From the NCBI GenBank assembly GCA_903911145.1, contig CAIWCD010000024.1, forward strand, positions 1-64,000: a DNA stretch of 64,000 bases, read 5' to 3'. This document shows positions 30,311 to 36,450 of this stretch, piece after piece. Made by a program: the position numbers and the translations under genes. Position 1 is the stretch's first letter. Each line of letters begins with the position of its first letter. This stretch comes from an uncultured delta proteobacterium. GTDB taxonomy: Bacteria; Myxococcota; Myxococcia; Myxococcales; 40CM-4-68-19. The notes beneath the pieces were generated by a model. That model saw only the letters and a program-made list of their open reading frames with translations, made no database searches and was not told the origin of the DNA.

Positions 30311-31216
30311 CTAATCGGCCTCAAGCATCGGCCCGATGGGCATGACGCGCTCGCCACGCTGTGCGGCGGCCTTGATGGTGTTCTCGACGATCTTGCGGGG
30401 AGCGGTGCGGACATCCCAGACGAGGCCGACGAGCTGGAAGAGGCGGATTAAATAGAAGCTGCCGTCGATCTCCCACCAGCGGAATCCCTGATTGGCCGAC
30501 GACTGATAGTAATGGTGGTTGTTATGCCAGCCCTCGCCCATCGTCAGCACGGCGATAAGCGGGTTGTTGCGGCTGGTATCGGTCGTCGCATAGCGGCGGG
30601 TGCCCCAGAGGTGATTGAGCGAGTTCACCAGGAAGGTGCCGTGCCAGAGCATCACGGTGGAGACGAAGAGGCCCCAGACGAGATAGTCCCAGCCGCCAAC
30701 AAGGAAGAGGGCCACGCCCAGCGCGGCCGGCGGCACGAGGTGCCAGGTATTGAGCCAGCGCAGCTCGGGATACTTCATCAAATCCTTGATGCGCGATTCA
30801 TCGAACGCGGTGTGCTCGCTCGAGAGGATCCAACCGACGTGGCTCCAGAAGATGCCGCGCATCGGCGAATGGACGTCCTTCTCGGTGTCCGAATAACGGT
30901 GGTGATCGCGGTGGTGCGCCGACCACCAGAGAACTCCCCGCTGCATCGATGTCTGCGAGAGAAACGCGAGCACGAACTGGAAGGCGCGGCTCGTCCGGAA
31001 CGTCTTATGCGCGAAGTATCGGTGATATCCGATGGTGATCGCCGCCATCCGCGCGTAATAGACACCGAGCGCAAGCCCGGCGAGCTTCCAGCTGCAGTGG
31101 GCGATCAGCGGCGCTGCGAAGGCGAGAAGATGAACGGTGGCGAAGGGGATGATCAGGCTGGAGAAGGGCGAGGCCATCTCTTCTGTCTTCGGCGTTGCGG
31201 CGGTTTGTTCGGACAT
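30311..31216 (-). CDS. Acyl-CoA (delta-9) fatty-acid desaturase
   Basis: A 301-residue membrane di-iron desaturase of the stearoyl-CoA desaturase family. All three histidine boxes are present: HRYFAH (65-70), HHRDHH (101-106) and HNNHH (231-235). Four membrane segments surround them. The reaction is O2-dependent insertion of a cis double bond into saturated acyl chains, which adjusts membrane fluidity. GGAGG lies before the start. It is a single-gene unit, divergent from the parvulin lipoprotein gene and convergent with the SpoIID-like gene. Confidence 0.92.
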   Translation of the reverse strand: MSEQTAATPKTEEMASPFSSLIIPFATVHLLAFAAPLIAHCSWKLAGLALGVYYARMAAITIGYHRYFAHKTFRTSRAFQFVLAFLSQTSMQRGVLWWSAHHRDHHRYSDTEKDVHSPMRGIFWSHVGWILSSEHTAFDESRIKDLMKYPELRWLNTWHLVPPAALGVALFLVGGWDYLVWGLFVSTVMLWHGTFLVNSLNHLWGTRRYATTDTSRNNPLIAVLTMGEGWHNNHHYYQSSANQGFRWWEIDGSFYLIRLFQLVGLVWDVRTAPRKIVENTIKAAAQRGERVMPIGPMLEAD

Positions 31217-31335: not shown

Positions 31336-31815
31336 ATGAAATCCCTGGCCCGCATCGCGCTGCTCCTCTCGTTGTTCACGGCCGCGACTTCGCTCGGCGG
31401 CTGCGCGACTCTGTTCGCCCGTGGCGGGCCCCAGTCGGTCGAGATCCTCGATCGCAAGGAGACGGAGAAATCGGTCTCGGTGAAGCATGTCCTCATCAGT
31501 TGGGCATGGCTTGCGCAGACCTATCGGCAGATCGGCCTGAAGCTCGATCGGCGCGCGGAAGGGCGCACGCAGGCCGATGCCGAGAAGCTGGTCACCGACA
31601 TCCTGGCCAGGCTGCGCGCGGGCGAGCGGATCGAGCCGTTGATGCGTGAGTTCTCCGAGGACGAAGGAAGCGCGCAGAATGGAATGGCCTATCCGGTCAC
31701 GCCCGATTCGCGGATGGCCGGCGACTTCATTGATCTCGCGCTGCGCCTGAAGGTCGGCGAGAGCGGCATCGTCAAGAGCAAGTTCGGTTATCACGTCATG
31801 TGGCGGGAGCGATAA
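31336..31815 (+). CDS. Parvulin-type peptidyl-prolyl isomerase lipoprotein
   Basis: A 159-residue protein. The signal MKSLARIALLLSLFTAATSLGGC carries the lipobox L-G-G-C. The rest is a single rotamase (parvulin, PpiC/PrsA-like) domain: SVKHVLISW at about 48, FSEDEGSAQNGM at about 105-116 and VGESGIVKSKFGYHVMW at the end. It should assist folding of exported proteins at the outer or inner membrane surface. GAAAGG precedes the start. The next gene begins 8 nt after the stop, so the two form an operon. Confidence 0.88.
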   Translation: MKSLARIALLLSLFTAATSLGGCATLFARGGPQSVEILDRKETEKSVSVKHVLISWAWLAQTYRQIGLKLDRRAEGRTQADAEKLVTDILARLRAGERIEPLMREFSEDEGSAQNGMAYPVTPDSRMAGDFIDLALRLKVGESGIVKSKFGYHVMWRER

Positions 31816-31823
31816 GCGCAAAT

Positions 31824-32495
31824 ATGAGCGCTGCGCGCGGTCTCGCCTTCTTCGATATGGACGGCACGCTGGTCGACGGCGACTGCGGGCTGCTCTTCGT
31901 GCGCGATTGCACGCTGCGCGGATTGATCCCTCCTCGCGAACTCGCGGCCTGGGTCGGATGGCTTGTGCGTGCGGCGCGCGAAGGGGTTGGTGAGCCGGTC
32001 GTCGCCGAAGCGAAGAGGCAGCTCCTGCGCATCTGGCTGCGGCTGGGCGAGCAGGCCGCGGAGGCTGCTTATGATGATTTCTTCAGGCGGGTATTAAGGC
32101 CCCGCTTGCGGCCCGATACCTGCGCTGAGGTCGCGCACGCGCAGCGCGAGGGTCAGGTCATTCTCATCACTGCCAATCTGCGCACGATGGCGATCCGCAT
32201 CGGTCGCGAGTTGGGGATCCCGCCCGAGTTCTGCCTCGGCGCCGAGGCGGTTCGCGATGCGAATGGAGCGATTACCGGCGATATCGATCGGCCGATTTTA
32301 ATGGGTGAGTGGCGCGCGCGCTTCGTGACCGAGCGGGCCGCCCGCGAGCAGATCGAGCTGCACCAGGTGCGCGCTTATGGCGACTCGCTTCATGATCTTC
32401 CGATGCTGCGTGCAGTGGGGCGGCCCTGCGCCGTGCATCCCGGTCGCGCGCTGCGAAGGGTCGCCGCGGCCGAAGGCTTCCGCCTGCTCGGTTGA
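31824..32495 (+). CDS. HAD-IB phosphatase (SerB-like)
   Basis: A 223-residue HAD hydrolase of subfamily IB. Motif I is FFDMDGTLVDGD with Asp11 and Asp13; motif II is LITAN; motif IV is YGDSLHDLPML. A helical cap lies between motif I and II. Related enzymes dephosphorylate phosphoserine or lipid phosphates (PgpB-like, CicA-like); the substrate here is not clear. The start at 31824 follows GGGAGCG and lies 8 nt after the isomerase gene. The longer in-frame GTG start would overlap that gene. Confidence 0.85.
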   Translation: MSAARGLAFFDMDGTLVDGDCGLLFVRDCTLRGLIPPRELAAWVGWLVRAAREGVGEPVVAEAKRQLLRIWLRLGEQAAEAAYDDFFRRVLRPRLRPDTCAEVAHAQREGQVILITANLRTMAIRIGRELGIPPEFCLGAEAVRDANGAITGDIDRPILMGEWRARFVTERAAREQIELHQVRAYGDSLHDLPMLRAVGRPCAVHPGRALRRVAAAEGFRLLG

Positions 32496-32558
32496 CGGCC
32501 GCGCGCGACTAAATACAAGGTTCGCGCCCGCGCAGTTGATTCGAAGGAGAGTCTGGCC

Positions 32559-33431
32559 GTGAATCAGATCGAGTCGGGAACGAAGACGCTGCGCGTGCTG
32601 CTCGCGACGCCCGGTGCAGAGCTGCTCGATCGCGGGGCGCGTGCGATTGCGCGCGGGCTGCGCAGCGCGGGGATCGACGTGATTGAAGCGGGGCCGCGCG
32701 CGACGCCCTCGTCCCTTGCTTTCGCTGCGGCAGAGCAGAGGGTCGATCTGATCGCGCTGGTGAGCCTGCGCGCGGCTGGCGAGTTCTGCCAGCAGCTGCA
32801 GCAGGCGCTGGCGGTGAGCGGCGGCGCGATTGCGCTGATGCTGGAGGGAATCATCTCCGACGACGAACGCGCAGCGCTCTCTGCGCACGGCATCCATTCG
32901 CTGCATGCTCCGCAGGCTTCGATCGAAGAGCTCGTCGCCGCGATTGGCAATCTCGTTCCTCATGCGAGCACGCGACAAGAATCGCGCGCGCCCGCGCCCA
33001 GCGCAGCCATCCGCGCGACCCGGCTCGATCACACTGCGCTCTGCGTGCGCGATCTCGACGCGACGATTGCGCTCTGCGAAGAGCTGTTCGGTGCGCCTGT
33101 CTCCCATCGCGAAGTCGTCGCGAGCCAGAAAGTCTCGGCGGCCTTTTTCGATTTTCCCAACGGCGCGTCATTGGAACTGGTCTCGCCTGCGGTTGAACTC
33201 GGTGGCAACGCCGGCCTCGAGAGATTTCTCTCCAAGCGCGGCGACGGCCTGCATCACCTTGCGCTGCGCGTGACCGGCCTCGACGCGCTGCTCGAGCGGC
33301 TGGCGGCCAGGGGCGTGCCGTTAATCGATTCGGTATCCAGGCCCGGCGCGCGCGGTCACCGCGTCGCATTCCTTCATCCCAAGGCGCTCGGCGGCACGCT
33401 TCTCGAACTGGTCGAAGTGCACGAGGGATAG
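32559..33431 (+). CDS. Methylmalonyl-CoA epimerase fused to degenerate B12-like domain
   Basis: A 290-residue two-domain protein from GTG 32559, with AAGGAGAG upstream. Residues 1-137 look like the cobalamin-binding domain of methylmalonyl-CoA mutase (LRVLLATPG, DRGARAIARGLRSAGIDVIEAG, VDLIALVSL). The canonical DGHDRG motif is replaced by ELLDRG, so the cobalt-ligating His is Leu23. Residues 148-290 are a VOC-fold methylmalonyl-CoA epimerase (DHTALCVRDLDATI, FDFPNGASLELVSP, HHLALRV, GTLLELVEV). It should interconvert (R)- and (S)-methylmalonyl-CoA. The N-terminal part may dock to the mutase rather than bind B12; that is inference. No mutase gene is in the window. Confidence 0.8.
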   Translation: MNQIESGTKTLRVLLATPGAELLDRGARAIARGLRSAGIDVIEAGPRATPSSLAFAAAEQRVDLIALVSLRAAGEFCQQLQQALAVSGGAIALMLEGIISDDERAALSAHGIHSLHAPQASIEELVAAIGNLVPHASTRQESRAPAPSAAIRATRLDHTALCVRDLDATIALCEELFGAPVSHREVVASQKVSAAFFDFPNGASLELVSPAVELGGNAGLERFLSKRGDGLHHLALRVTGLDALLERLAARGVPLIDSVSRPGARGHRVAFLHPKALGGTLLELVEVHEG

Positions 33432-33458: not shown

Positions 33459-35948
33459 TTATCCCCGCTTTGCCAGTGGCCGGAAGACGATGCGGCAGAC
33501 CATTGATGTGGCCGCCTTCTCGTGCACCAGTTTGGGCATCTCCGACAGCTTCGGCGGCGTCGGCATCATGAAGCCCGAGGCCGTCGTGCATTCAAATACG
33601 CCTGGCCCACGCTCGACCATTCCATCGAATTTCACGTCGGCGCGGATATCCTTGGCGAAGATCGATTCCTTCTCCGAATGGAGATAATCGGTGCGGACGG
33701 CCTCGACGCTCTCGATCTGCACCCAGGAATACCGCGCACCAAAGGCAATCCCGAGATGGATGGTGCCGTCGCTGAGTGGGACGACGAGGGCATAGTAACC
33801 ATCATAGGTAGCAATGGCGTCGAAGTCCTTCGAGGTCGTGTCATTGCCGAGGATGAACAGCACGCGGAGTTTCTCGTGCCGCAGCGTCAGGTCGTGCTGG
33901 TTGAATTCAAGTGAATATCGATTGGCCGCGAGCAGAGAGAGCGACAGCGTCAAGCTGGCCGAGCGCAATTCGGTCGGATAGTTCGTCCGCATATTGTCGG
34001 TCTTATCGAGCATCGAGAAGAGGCCGCGTCGCTGCAGGCCGAGCAGTCCTTGCTCGCGATCAAAGAGTGCGAAGGTATCTTTGGTGGCGAGGTTCAAGTC
34101 GATGCGGAATCCCTCGAGGCATGCGACCTCCATCTCGCTGGTGAAATAGAGGATCCGCGTGAGTGCGCCCAGAGCGGTCGCGCGCAATGCTGTCATCGAT
34201 GGGTGCCGGCCGATCTTGCGGAAGAACTCCTCGGCGTCGCGCGCGAACTGGATGCAATGCTGCTGGATCGGCTCGAGGCGGGCATGCTGCGCCGAGGAGA
34301 TCTCGTTCTGCTCGACGACCGGTTCGCCGTTCTCCTCGTATTGAGTCACGCTGACCATATCGGTCGTGCAGAGGTCCTCAATCATCGCGATGGTGTGATT
34401 GCGCAGAATCGCGGCGATCGCGCGAGTATCGACGATACTCCCGTCGACCAATCCCTTGCGCGCGCGCGACCAGCCTTGCGTCGGCGCCGCGATCATATAT
34501 CGGCCGACGATCTCGATTCCCAGCTCCTCGCGGAAGACCGGCTCGAGCAATCGCTGCACCGTTCCGACATAACCGAGGTCGACGAAGACGATCGTGTCGC
34601 CGCGCTCCATCGGCATCCGTGAGTTGATATGGCGGAAGAGCCGCTCGCGGTGTGTGCGCGAGCGGCTGATGATGACCTTGAGAACTTCAGGCTTGCGCAT
34701 CTGGCGCGCGAACTCTTCGGACGGCTGTTCGTGCCGCTCGGCCTTGCGGATGATCTCTTTCGCGAGCGGCCCGGGGATCTGCAGCTGTTTGGCGAGAGGT
34801 TCGAATCGATTGTGTGCGTTGCGCGTGAGGTATTCGTCAACTTCATGCTGCGAGCGGAAGGCCGCGGCCTGCGCGGAGAAGCGGCTGATCGAGACCGCCG
34901 GGCCGACCTCCTCACCAGCAATTGCATTGCAGACCTTGAGCGGCAGATAGGCGTCGCGCAGAAGGAAGACTGGCTTGACCTTCTTTCCTTCTGCGCGCAG
35001 CTGCGCGAGCTCATCGAGGATGAACTTGCCGAACGAATAGAGGAGGGGACCAATCCCGACATATCCGAGCACGCGCGGCGGATCGGCCGGCTGCGGACTT
35101 GCCGCGAGCAGGGCGCGAAATGGACTCTGCAGCGAATCCGAGCCGCGCGCCTGGCCGCTCTGCATGCTGTACGCGAGAGCCTCGGTGCGAAGGATCTGCT
35201 CGATATAGGCGTCCTGCTGGATGAAATGGAGCGCCTGGATCTTCGCCGCGCGAGGCCCGTCGAAATCAGCGAGCAGATTATCCCCGATATGCAGCAGCTC
35301 GGAGGGCTTGAACCCGGTCTTGGCGAGGACGTCCTGGAAGAGCCCTGCCGTCTTTCCGCGGCGATATTCACTCGAGCAGAAGATCCCATCGATCATCTCG
35401 AGCACGCCCGCGGGCAGGGTTACCGAGAGCAGATGGCGCAGCTGCGGCTCGGATAGATAGGTATCGCTGACGATATAGACTTTAAGCCCCTTCGCGTGCG
35501 CACCGCGGACGAGCTCGACGAACGGCGGGAAGGCGAAGCAGGCCTGCTCCTCTGCGGCGAGCTCGGCGGTGATCAGCGCCGAGCGCTGCGCTTCGGTCAT
35601 CGGCAACTGGAGATGATCTGCGTGGTAGATATCGGCCAGCTTCACCTCGACGGTCCGGCTGCGCACGCGCGCGAACTGGCGCGCCGAGGTCTCGGCTGTC
35701 ATTCGATCGAACGCCGTCATTCCGACTGCGCGCGCGGCCGGCGTCTTGGCGAGATCGAAGAAGACGTCGATCGGCTTGCCGGTCTGCCGCCAGAGCAGGG
35801 TGTCGAAGCAGTCGAGGGTGATGGCGCCGATGAGCGGCGCGAAGAATTCGAGCGCTTGCGGAAGCTCGAAGGCGCGAACGGTGGTGCGCGCCGGATCCTT
35901 CGTCGGGGAGGAACTCTGCTGCGGGCGCGAATCGGACGGAGATGCCAT
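33459..35948 (-). CDS. Large HAD-domain protein, unknown role
   Basis: An 829-residue cytoplasmic protein. The N-terminal 60-260 is a HAD domain: TLDCFDTLLWR carries the nucleophile Asp, VYIVSDTYLS is motif II and LLHIGDNLLADFDG is motif IV. About 570 residues without a recognised domain follow, including MERGDTIVFVDLGYVGTVQRLLEP, a segment I associate with long HAD proteins found near polysaccharide or glycosyltransferase genes. No glycosyltransferase is next to it here. It converges with the epimerase gene. A role in capsule or glycan synthesis is possible but unproven. Confidence 0.75.
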   Translation of the reverse strand: MASPSDSRPQQSSSPTKDPARTTVRAFELPQALEFFAPLIGAITLDCFDTLLWRQTGKPIDVFFDLAKTPAARAVGMTAFDRMTAETSARQFARVRSRTVEVKLADIYHADHLQLPMTEAQRSALITAELAAEEQACFAFPPFVELVRGAHAKGLKVYIVSDTYLSEPQLRHLLSVTLPAGVLEMIDGIFCSSEYRRGKTAGLFQDVLAKTGFKPSELLHIGDNLLADFDGPRAAKIQALHFIQQDAYIEQILRTEALAYSMQSGQARGSDSLQSPFRALLAASPQPADPPRVLGYVGIGPLLYSFGKFILDELAQLRAEGKKVKPVFLLRDAYLPLKVCNAIAGEEVGPAVSISRFSAQAAAFRSQHEVDEYLTRNAHNRFEPLAKQLQIPGPLAKEIIRKAERHEQPSEEFARQMRKPEVLKVIISRSRTHRERLFRHINSRMPMERGDTIVFVDLGYVGTVQRLLEPVFREELGIEIVGRYMIAAPTQGWSRARKGLVDGSIVDTRAIAAILRNHTIAMIEDLCTTDMVSVTQYEENGEPVVEQNEISSAQHARLEPIQQHCIQFARDAEEFFRKIGRHPSMTALRATALGALTRILYFTSEMEVACLEGFRIDLNLATKDTFALFDREQGLLGLQRRGLFSMLDKTDNMRTNYPTELRSASLTLSLSLLAANRYSLEFNQHDLTLRHEKLRVLFILGNDTTSKDFDAIATYDGYYALVVPLSDGTIHLGIAFGARYSWVQIESVEAVRTDYLHSEKESIFAKDIRADVKFDGMVERGPGVFECTTASGFMMPTPPKLSEMPKLVHEKAATSMVCRIVFRPLAKRG

Positions 35949-36093: not shown

Positions 36094-36450
36094 ATGGCCA
36101 GCCGTCGTGTCGCGGTTGACGCGGTGTGGATCGAATCACTCGGGCACTCGATCGGGGTCCAGCTTGGCCGCGCCATCGCCAAGCACCTCCAGGCCACGCT
36201 CGCCGATTCCGTCGACCTGGGCGCGGTCGCCAAGCAGTTCGCGGGCGCGTCCGGTGGTCGTCGCGGCCAGAAGCTCGACGCAGAAGCGACCGACTGCTCG
36301 TCTCCCGGTTGCGCGAATCCGGTGCTCGCGCGGAGCCTTTGCCGGTCGCACTACTACAAGGCGCGCTACCGTTCGAAGAAGAGCGACGGGGCGAAGAAGC
36401 GGCCGCAACCGGGGCCGAATCCGGCTGCGCTTCCCTCTGGGCGACGGTAA
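36094..36450 (+). CDS. Small protein with zinc-finger-like C-x4-C...C-x2-H motif
   Basis: A 118-residue protein. The N-terminal half is helical (IESLGHSIGVQLGRAIAKHLQ). Residues 68-92 read CSSPGCANPVLARSLCRSHY, a small putative zinc motif (C-x4-C, C-x2-H) that resembles those seen in phage and myxobacterial proteins of unknown role. The C-terminus is very basic (KARYRSKKSDGAKKRPQPG), consistent with nucleic-acid binding. A strong GGAG precedes the ATG, and a TTTG-N4-CAA element lies 20 nt upstream. The GltJ-like gene starts 51 nt downstream. No function can be named. Confidence 0.65.
   Translation: MASRRVAVDAVWIESLGHSIGVQLGRAIAKHLQATLADSVDLGAVAKQFAGASGGRRGQKLDAEATDCSSPGCANPVLARSLCRSHYYKARYRSKKSDGAKKRPQPGPNPAALPSGRR

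Follow-up and report, generated by a model that had tools for sequence, protein, structure and literature searches.

Why a methylmalonyl-CoA epimerase should carry a cobalamin-binding-type domain that has lost its cobalt ligand is the question raised by an open reading frame in the window (the whole stretch of 64,000 nucleotides analysed here). The gene (32559..33431, forward strand) has a GTG start and one uninterrupted frame with zero internal stops, and profile matches and alignment indicate that its 290-residue product is a B12-binding-like domain fused to a methylmalonyl-CoA epimerase. A ribosome-binding-site-like AAGGAG, evident on direct reading, lies 9 bases 5' of the start (32544..32549, forward strand), and the GC content by codon position (0.78/0.51/0.78) is typical of coding DNA. 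A chance match or a frameshift artefact was considered and ruled out by the continuous frame, the lack of stops, the coding-like GC and the matching structures.

The N-terminal part (residues 11-134) matches TIGR00640, the C-terminal domain of methylmalonyl-CoA mutase, as the earlier note had recognised from the letters alone, with 57.4 bits versus a curated cutoff of 57.45; it scores 30.0 bits with the Pfam B12-binding family (cutoff 32.1). The C-terminal part (residues 155-286) matches the epimerase family TIGR03081 from end to end (positions 1-129 of 129) with 105.2 bits versus a curated cutoff of 114.95, and Glyoxalase_4 with 76.2 bits, over the cutoff. Both domains fall slightly short of the curated NCBIfam cutoffs, and the TIGR03081 score is also under the cutoff in most relatives that have the same fusion. 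A sequence search of solved structures returned cobalamin domains for the N-terminal half (2yxb, 1e-13; 4r3u_C, 1e-10) and epimerases for the C-terminal half (6bu2, 6e-22; also 3rmu and 1jc4).

The AlphaFold model built with an alignment (mean pLDDT 87.2) consists of two domains joined by a flexible linker (residues 135-154; 32961..33020, forward strand), disordered at residues 136-148, where pLDDT is <50. The N-terminal domain (residues 9-134; 32583..32960, forward strand), delimited by TIGR00640 and the structures, is a degenerate cobalamin-binding-type Rossmann fold; folded alone from its single sequence, it forms five alternating strand-helix units (pLDDT 76.9, pTM 0.72). Because this alignment-free prediction gives the same fold, the fold is not imposed by intact relatives. 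Foldseek aligns the domain to solved B12-binding domains with TM scores, by target length, of 0.85 (2yxb) and 0.86 (4r3u_C), so that the predictions with and without alignment and the structural search agree on the Rossmann-like (beta-alpha)5 fold of base-off/His-on B12 domains on which the earlier note depended. The epimerase domain (residues 155-287; 33021..33419, forward strand), delimited by TIGR03081 and by Foldseek matches to 6bu2, 6wf6 and 3oa4, has the VOC (glyoxalase) fold in the AlphaFold model (TM score by target length 0.81 to 6bu2 and 0.88 to 3oa4).

In alignment with 18 full-length relatives, the replacement of DGHDRG by ELLDRG that the earlier note had pointed out was confirmed: every one of the relatives has DGHDRG, whereas the window protein has E21-L22-L23-D24-R25-G26 (32619..32636, forward strand), with Leu23 at the position of the cobalt-ligating histidine. 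The same alignment shows that the SxL region has changed from GLSxLSGAH to ALVSLRAAG and the GG motif from GGxIP to EGIIS, so that none of the three motifs (DxHxxG, SxL and GG) is found in the N-terminal domain of the window protein. The residues lost are K17, D21, G22, H23, Y43, T44, G66, S68, S71, G72, H74, G96 and P100; that is, besides the histidine, the lysine at position 17, a Tyr-Thr pair past strand 2, the G-L-S-x-L-S-G-A-H stretch, and a Gly-Gly past strand 4 have been affected. In known mutases, the C-terminal edge of the strands is the site that holds the corrin, and the same face meets the mutase barrel. With the face known from solved mutases, the losses cluster at the corrin-holding, barrel-facing strand ends, the pattern predicted by orphaning of the domain and its subsequent decay.

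The epimerase half is intact, also in keeping with the earlier note. His158 (33030..33032), the first metal ligand by alignment with the Streptomyces coelicolor epimerase, the second metal histidine His233 (33255..33257) and Glu283 (33405..33407), at the metal ligand/base position, all on the forward strand, are invariant across the 19 sequences (the window protein and its 18 relatives), and Glu206 (33174..33176, forward strand) aligns with the position of Gln60 in the S. coelicolor enzyme. The corresponding metal-site residues of human MCEE are His50, His122 and Glu172 (PMC6525113). The window protein is most likely, as predicted from these residues, a working-looking, metal-dependent methylmalonyl-CoA epimerase with an inert N-terminal Rossmann domain.

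The two-domain architecture for which the earlier note recommended a search does occur elsewhere, but with a live DGHDRG in the aligned copies. Among 145 genomes of the order, 8 have the fusion: the window genome and seven others, whose B12 domains score high (130-141 bits), DGHDRG being intact in the six aligned order relatives and in L190. The fusion is also present in many Bacilli, located directly 3' of a mutase large subunit gene in nearly all loci examined. The best-matching MAGs that bear a name are Deltaproteobacteria/Myxococcales, which makes an origin of the window in Myxococcota likely. In genomes of the same family (G002-G006, G008) and in G015, the fusion gene directly follows the gene for a mutase large subunit and directly precedes ccr, encoding crotonyl-CoA carboxylase/reductase (TIGR01751, 490+ bits where complete); the upstream part of the operon encodes an acyl-CoA dehydrogenase and two MaoC-type hydratases, with a CitE-like lyase in addition in G015. 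Because the fusion gene of the relatives directly adjoins the large subunit gene, the N-terminal domain is in origin the cobalamin subunit of a split acyl-CoA mutase, hence part of the mutase itself. A fusion with a dead domain as a conserved architecture is ruled out, since all 18 aligned relatives are intact; the changed motif was not found in a second genome among the 145 of the order, so that one decayed example is known. No published description of the fusion was found in the open-access literature, and the intact architecture of the relatives and the Bacilli, with a mutase B12 subunit covalently attached to the epimerase that feeds the mutase, is apparently undescribed.

With its Ccr, epimerase, mutase, dehydrogenase and hydratase genes, the operon of the relatives resembles the ethylmalonyl-CoA pathway. 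Its mutase shares only 36% identity with an alphaproteobacterial mutase that is encoded next to Ccr and has a B12 domain of its own, but is 52-54% identical to split mutases of Marinobacter and of Sulfitobacter plasmids, with which it forms a clade of its own; these identities do not support placing it in the classical Ecm/MeaA subclade. Its substrate-pocket motif, TRGIH[RG][NT]MY, is also different and non-canonical. Because the mutase diverges from the Ccr-adjacent type, the 'ethylmalonyl-CoA' label rests on operon context, from which the substrate of the mutase is deduced; the enzyme is possibly a non-orthologous ethylmalonyl-CoA mutase. The arrangement of a split mutase with its B12 subunit fused to the epimerase was observed at L190:2162-9143 (G015:C45) as well as in G002-G006 and G008.

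In the window genome, the surroundings of this operon have been preserved and its contents have not. From 30.3 to 64 kb, the open reading frames follow the gene order of G003:C83; colinearity with G004:C48 and G006:C77 covers the right side of the window, and G002 and G005 (including G005:C369) are colinear over shorter contigs. The left markers are a fatty-acid desaturase gene (30311..31216, reverse strand; PF00487), 59-64% identical to those beside the intact operon in G002, G003 and G005, and, by synteny, a PPIC-type rotamase gene (31336..31815, forward strand) that directly precedes the operon in G003; the right marker, also syntenic, is a gene for a small conserved protein (36094..36450, forward strand), two genes beyond ccr in the relatives. 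Between these markers, the fusion alone remains of the operon genes. Two HAD-type genes flank it (31800-32495 and 33459-35948); no match to either was found in the syntenic regions of the relatives, and they are possible traces of the rearrangement by which the operon was lost.

No mutase gene was found in the window, no mutase of the operon clade and no operon hydratase in the window genome, and no Ccr there either (best score 109 bits versus a cutoff of 378.55), while a search of the genome for epimerases matched only this open reading frame; the assembly has 53 contigs and is 98.96% complete, so that a mutase or epimerase gene could have been missed but probably was not. Two mutases are kept, on contigs C2 and C49, both outside the clade of the lost partner: that on C2 adjoins genes for biotin carboxylase and BCCP, and that on C49 has an intact DGHDRG subunit nearby. 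The C2 large subunit gene (G000:C2:91173-92957; L186:7174-8958) has no B12 subunit encoded nearby, as is the case also in family relatives, and its product may borrow the C49 B12 subunit. Loss of the operon in the window genome was probably recent, because G001, of the same genus and the closest relative, keeps ccr and the hydratase and dehydrogenase genes. The contigs of G001 break exactly at the expected site of the mutase and fusion genes, the absence of which from G001 is probably an assembly gap. Assembly breaks at this part of the operon were observed in G001 (C240/C160), G010 (C271/C267) and G011 (C410), and the apparent absence of the fusion from these three genomes is probably due only to such gaps.

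The two halves of the window protein have diverged at very different rates. The B12 domain is 34-38% identical to those of its order relatives (34-37% within the family), in contrast with 74-77% for the epimerase domain within the family, whereas among the relatives themselves the two domains are about equally conserved. The terminal branch of the window protein is 1.52 for the N-terminal domain (0.08-0.18 in relatives) and 0.23 for the C-terminal domain (0.05-0.14 in the family), which makes evolution 6-7 times faster in the B12 domain than in the epimerase domain. Synonymous sites being saturated (pS about 0.5-0.7 everywhere), the analysis relied on amino-acid branch lengths and a neutral simulation rather than on a dS selection test. 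Compared with a simulation of neutral drift, free of stops and run to the identity level of the window domain, the N-terminal domain retains 34 of 38 core hydrophobic columns (25.5 +/- 2.7 expected) and scores 80.4 bits with the relatives' profile HMM (33.9 +/- 8.8 simulated, maximum 65.3), but it keeps only 11 of the 29 invariant non-hydrophobic positions of the relatives. Thus the cofactor face has been released while folding is still under selection. Stops and misfolding in the N-terminal domain would be selected against because the epimerase lies downstream in the same polypeptide; this explains the kept core without a new function, even if some function beyond 'not misfolding' is possible, the core being better conserved than neutral drift predicts.

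Retention of the fold beyond the neutral expectation is also what would be seen if the domain had become, as the earlier note suggested, a purpose-made docking or channelling module. The mutase cobalamin subunit would then have turned into a cofactor-free protein-protein module whose scaffolding role, kept or gained, is to anchor the sole epimerase to a non-cognate mutase (that of C2 or C49); the homologous domain of the relatives is encoded as a mutase partner, and no small subunit is encoded beside the C2 mutase. This part of the earlier note did not fare well, and we consider it unlikely: the residues lost cluster on the face that holds the corrin and meets the barrel, the clades of the C2 and C49 mutases are not that of the lost partner, the aligned relatives have intact domains beside their mutases whereas here the partner is gone, and relatives too have C2-type mutases without small subunits, alongside an intact fusion. 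Still less probable is that the N-terminal domain has been re-purposed for another ligand or protein, in cobalamin-independent regulation or oligomerisation; the combination of a kept hydrophobic core and mostly lost invariant polar residues would allow it, but with the changed motif found in no second genome, no new conserved surface is visible. Continued binding of cobalamin in a His-off mode, for which the fold kept in the predictions might speak, is very improbable, given that the DxHxxG, SxL and GG regions are all altered, beyond the histidine alone, and that the cognate mutase is absent from the genome.

The evidence from motifs, synteny and branch lengths makes it likely that the N-terminal domain is an orphaned, cofactor-dead but still-folded appendage on the sole recognisable epimerase of the genome, left behind when the operon and the partner mutase were lost. 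The ancestor would have been a bifunctional subunit, in which the adenosylcobalamin-binding part of a split acyl-CoA mutase was joined to an epimerase, encoded in an ethylmalonyl-CoA-pathway-like operon. This operon, including the large subunit of the mutase to which the B12 domain belonged, would have been lost around the fusion gene, and the epimerase half retained as the only recognisable methylmalonyl-CoA epimerase of the genome, where it presumably now turns the (S) form of methylmalonyl-CoA into the (R) form for the propionyl-CoA carboxylase and methylmalonyl-CoA mutase(s) that remain. The B12 half would have lost cobalamin binding and would persist in folded form, since translation has to pass through it to reach the epimerase, which its misfolding would harm.

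The fusions of the family (G002-G006, G008) are orthologous to that of the window by synteny and, as in G015, differ in having an intact B12 domain together with the mutase, Ccr, dehydrogenase and hydratases. Those of Bacilli (Aneurinibacillus, Pontibacillus, Salinibacillus, Oceanobacillus and Scopulibacillus; L010-L041) have the same domain order and length, with 30-35% identity over the full length, but possess an intact DGHDRG and a partner mutase, mostly of a Mut_C2-like clade. In Piscibacillus, Filobacillus and Alkalibacillus, the matches to the two parts lie next to each other but apart, so that the genes are probably unfused; such separate B12-subunit and epimerase stretches were observed in the halophilic Bacilli L058, L061, L063, L068 and L079, close relatives of which have the fusion, indicating fusion or fission within one family. 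Free-standing methylmalonyl-CoA epimerases (TIGR03081; PDB 6bu2, 6wf6, 3oa4 and 3rmu) share the VOC fold and the His/His/Glu metal site but lack an N-terminal domain. In the beta subunit of the heterodimeric methylmalonyl-CoA mutase of the Propionibacterium type, a mutase-derived B12 domain has likewise lost cobalamin binding and kept its fold; there, the dead domain is still within the mutase, whereas in the window protein it is joined to an epimerase, its mutase having been lost.

A B12-binding match in such a protein should not be equated with B12 dependence in annotation. Coupling of epimerase and mutase is plausible in the relatives with an intact domain, and their fusions allow it to be tested directly. 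The window protein would be a natural record of what becomes of a fused two-function protein once one of its halves has lost its partner: the sole-copy C-terminal enzyme preserves the open reading frame, and the N-terminal domain is left with its active face gone and its core kept.
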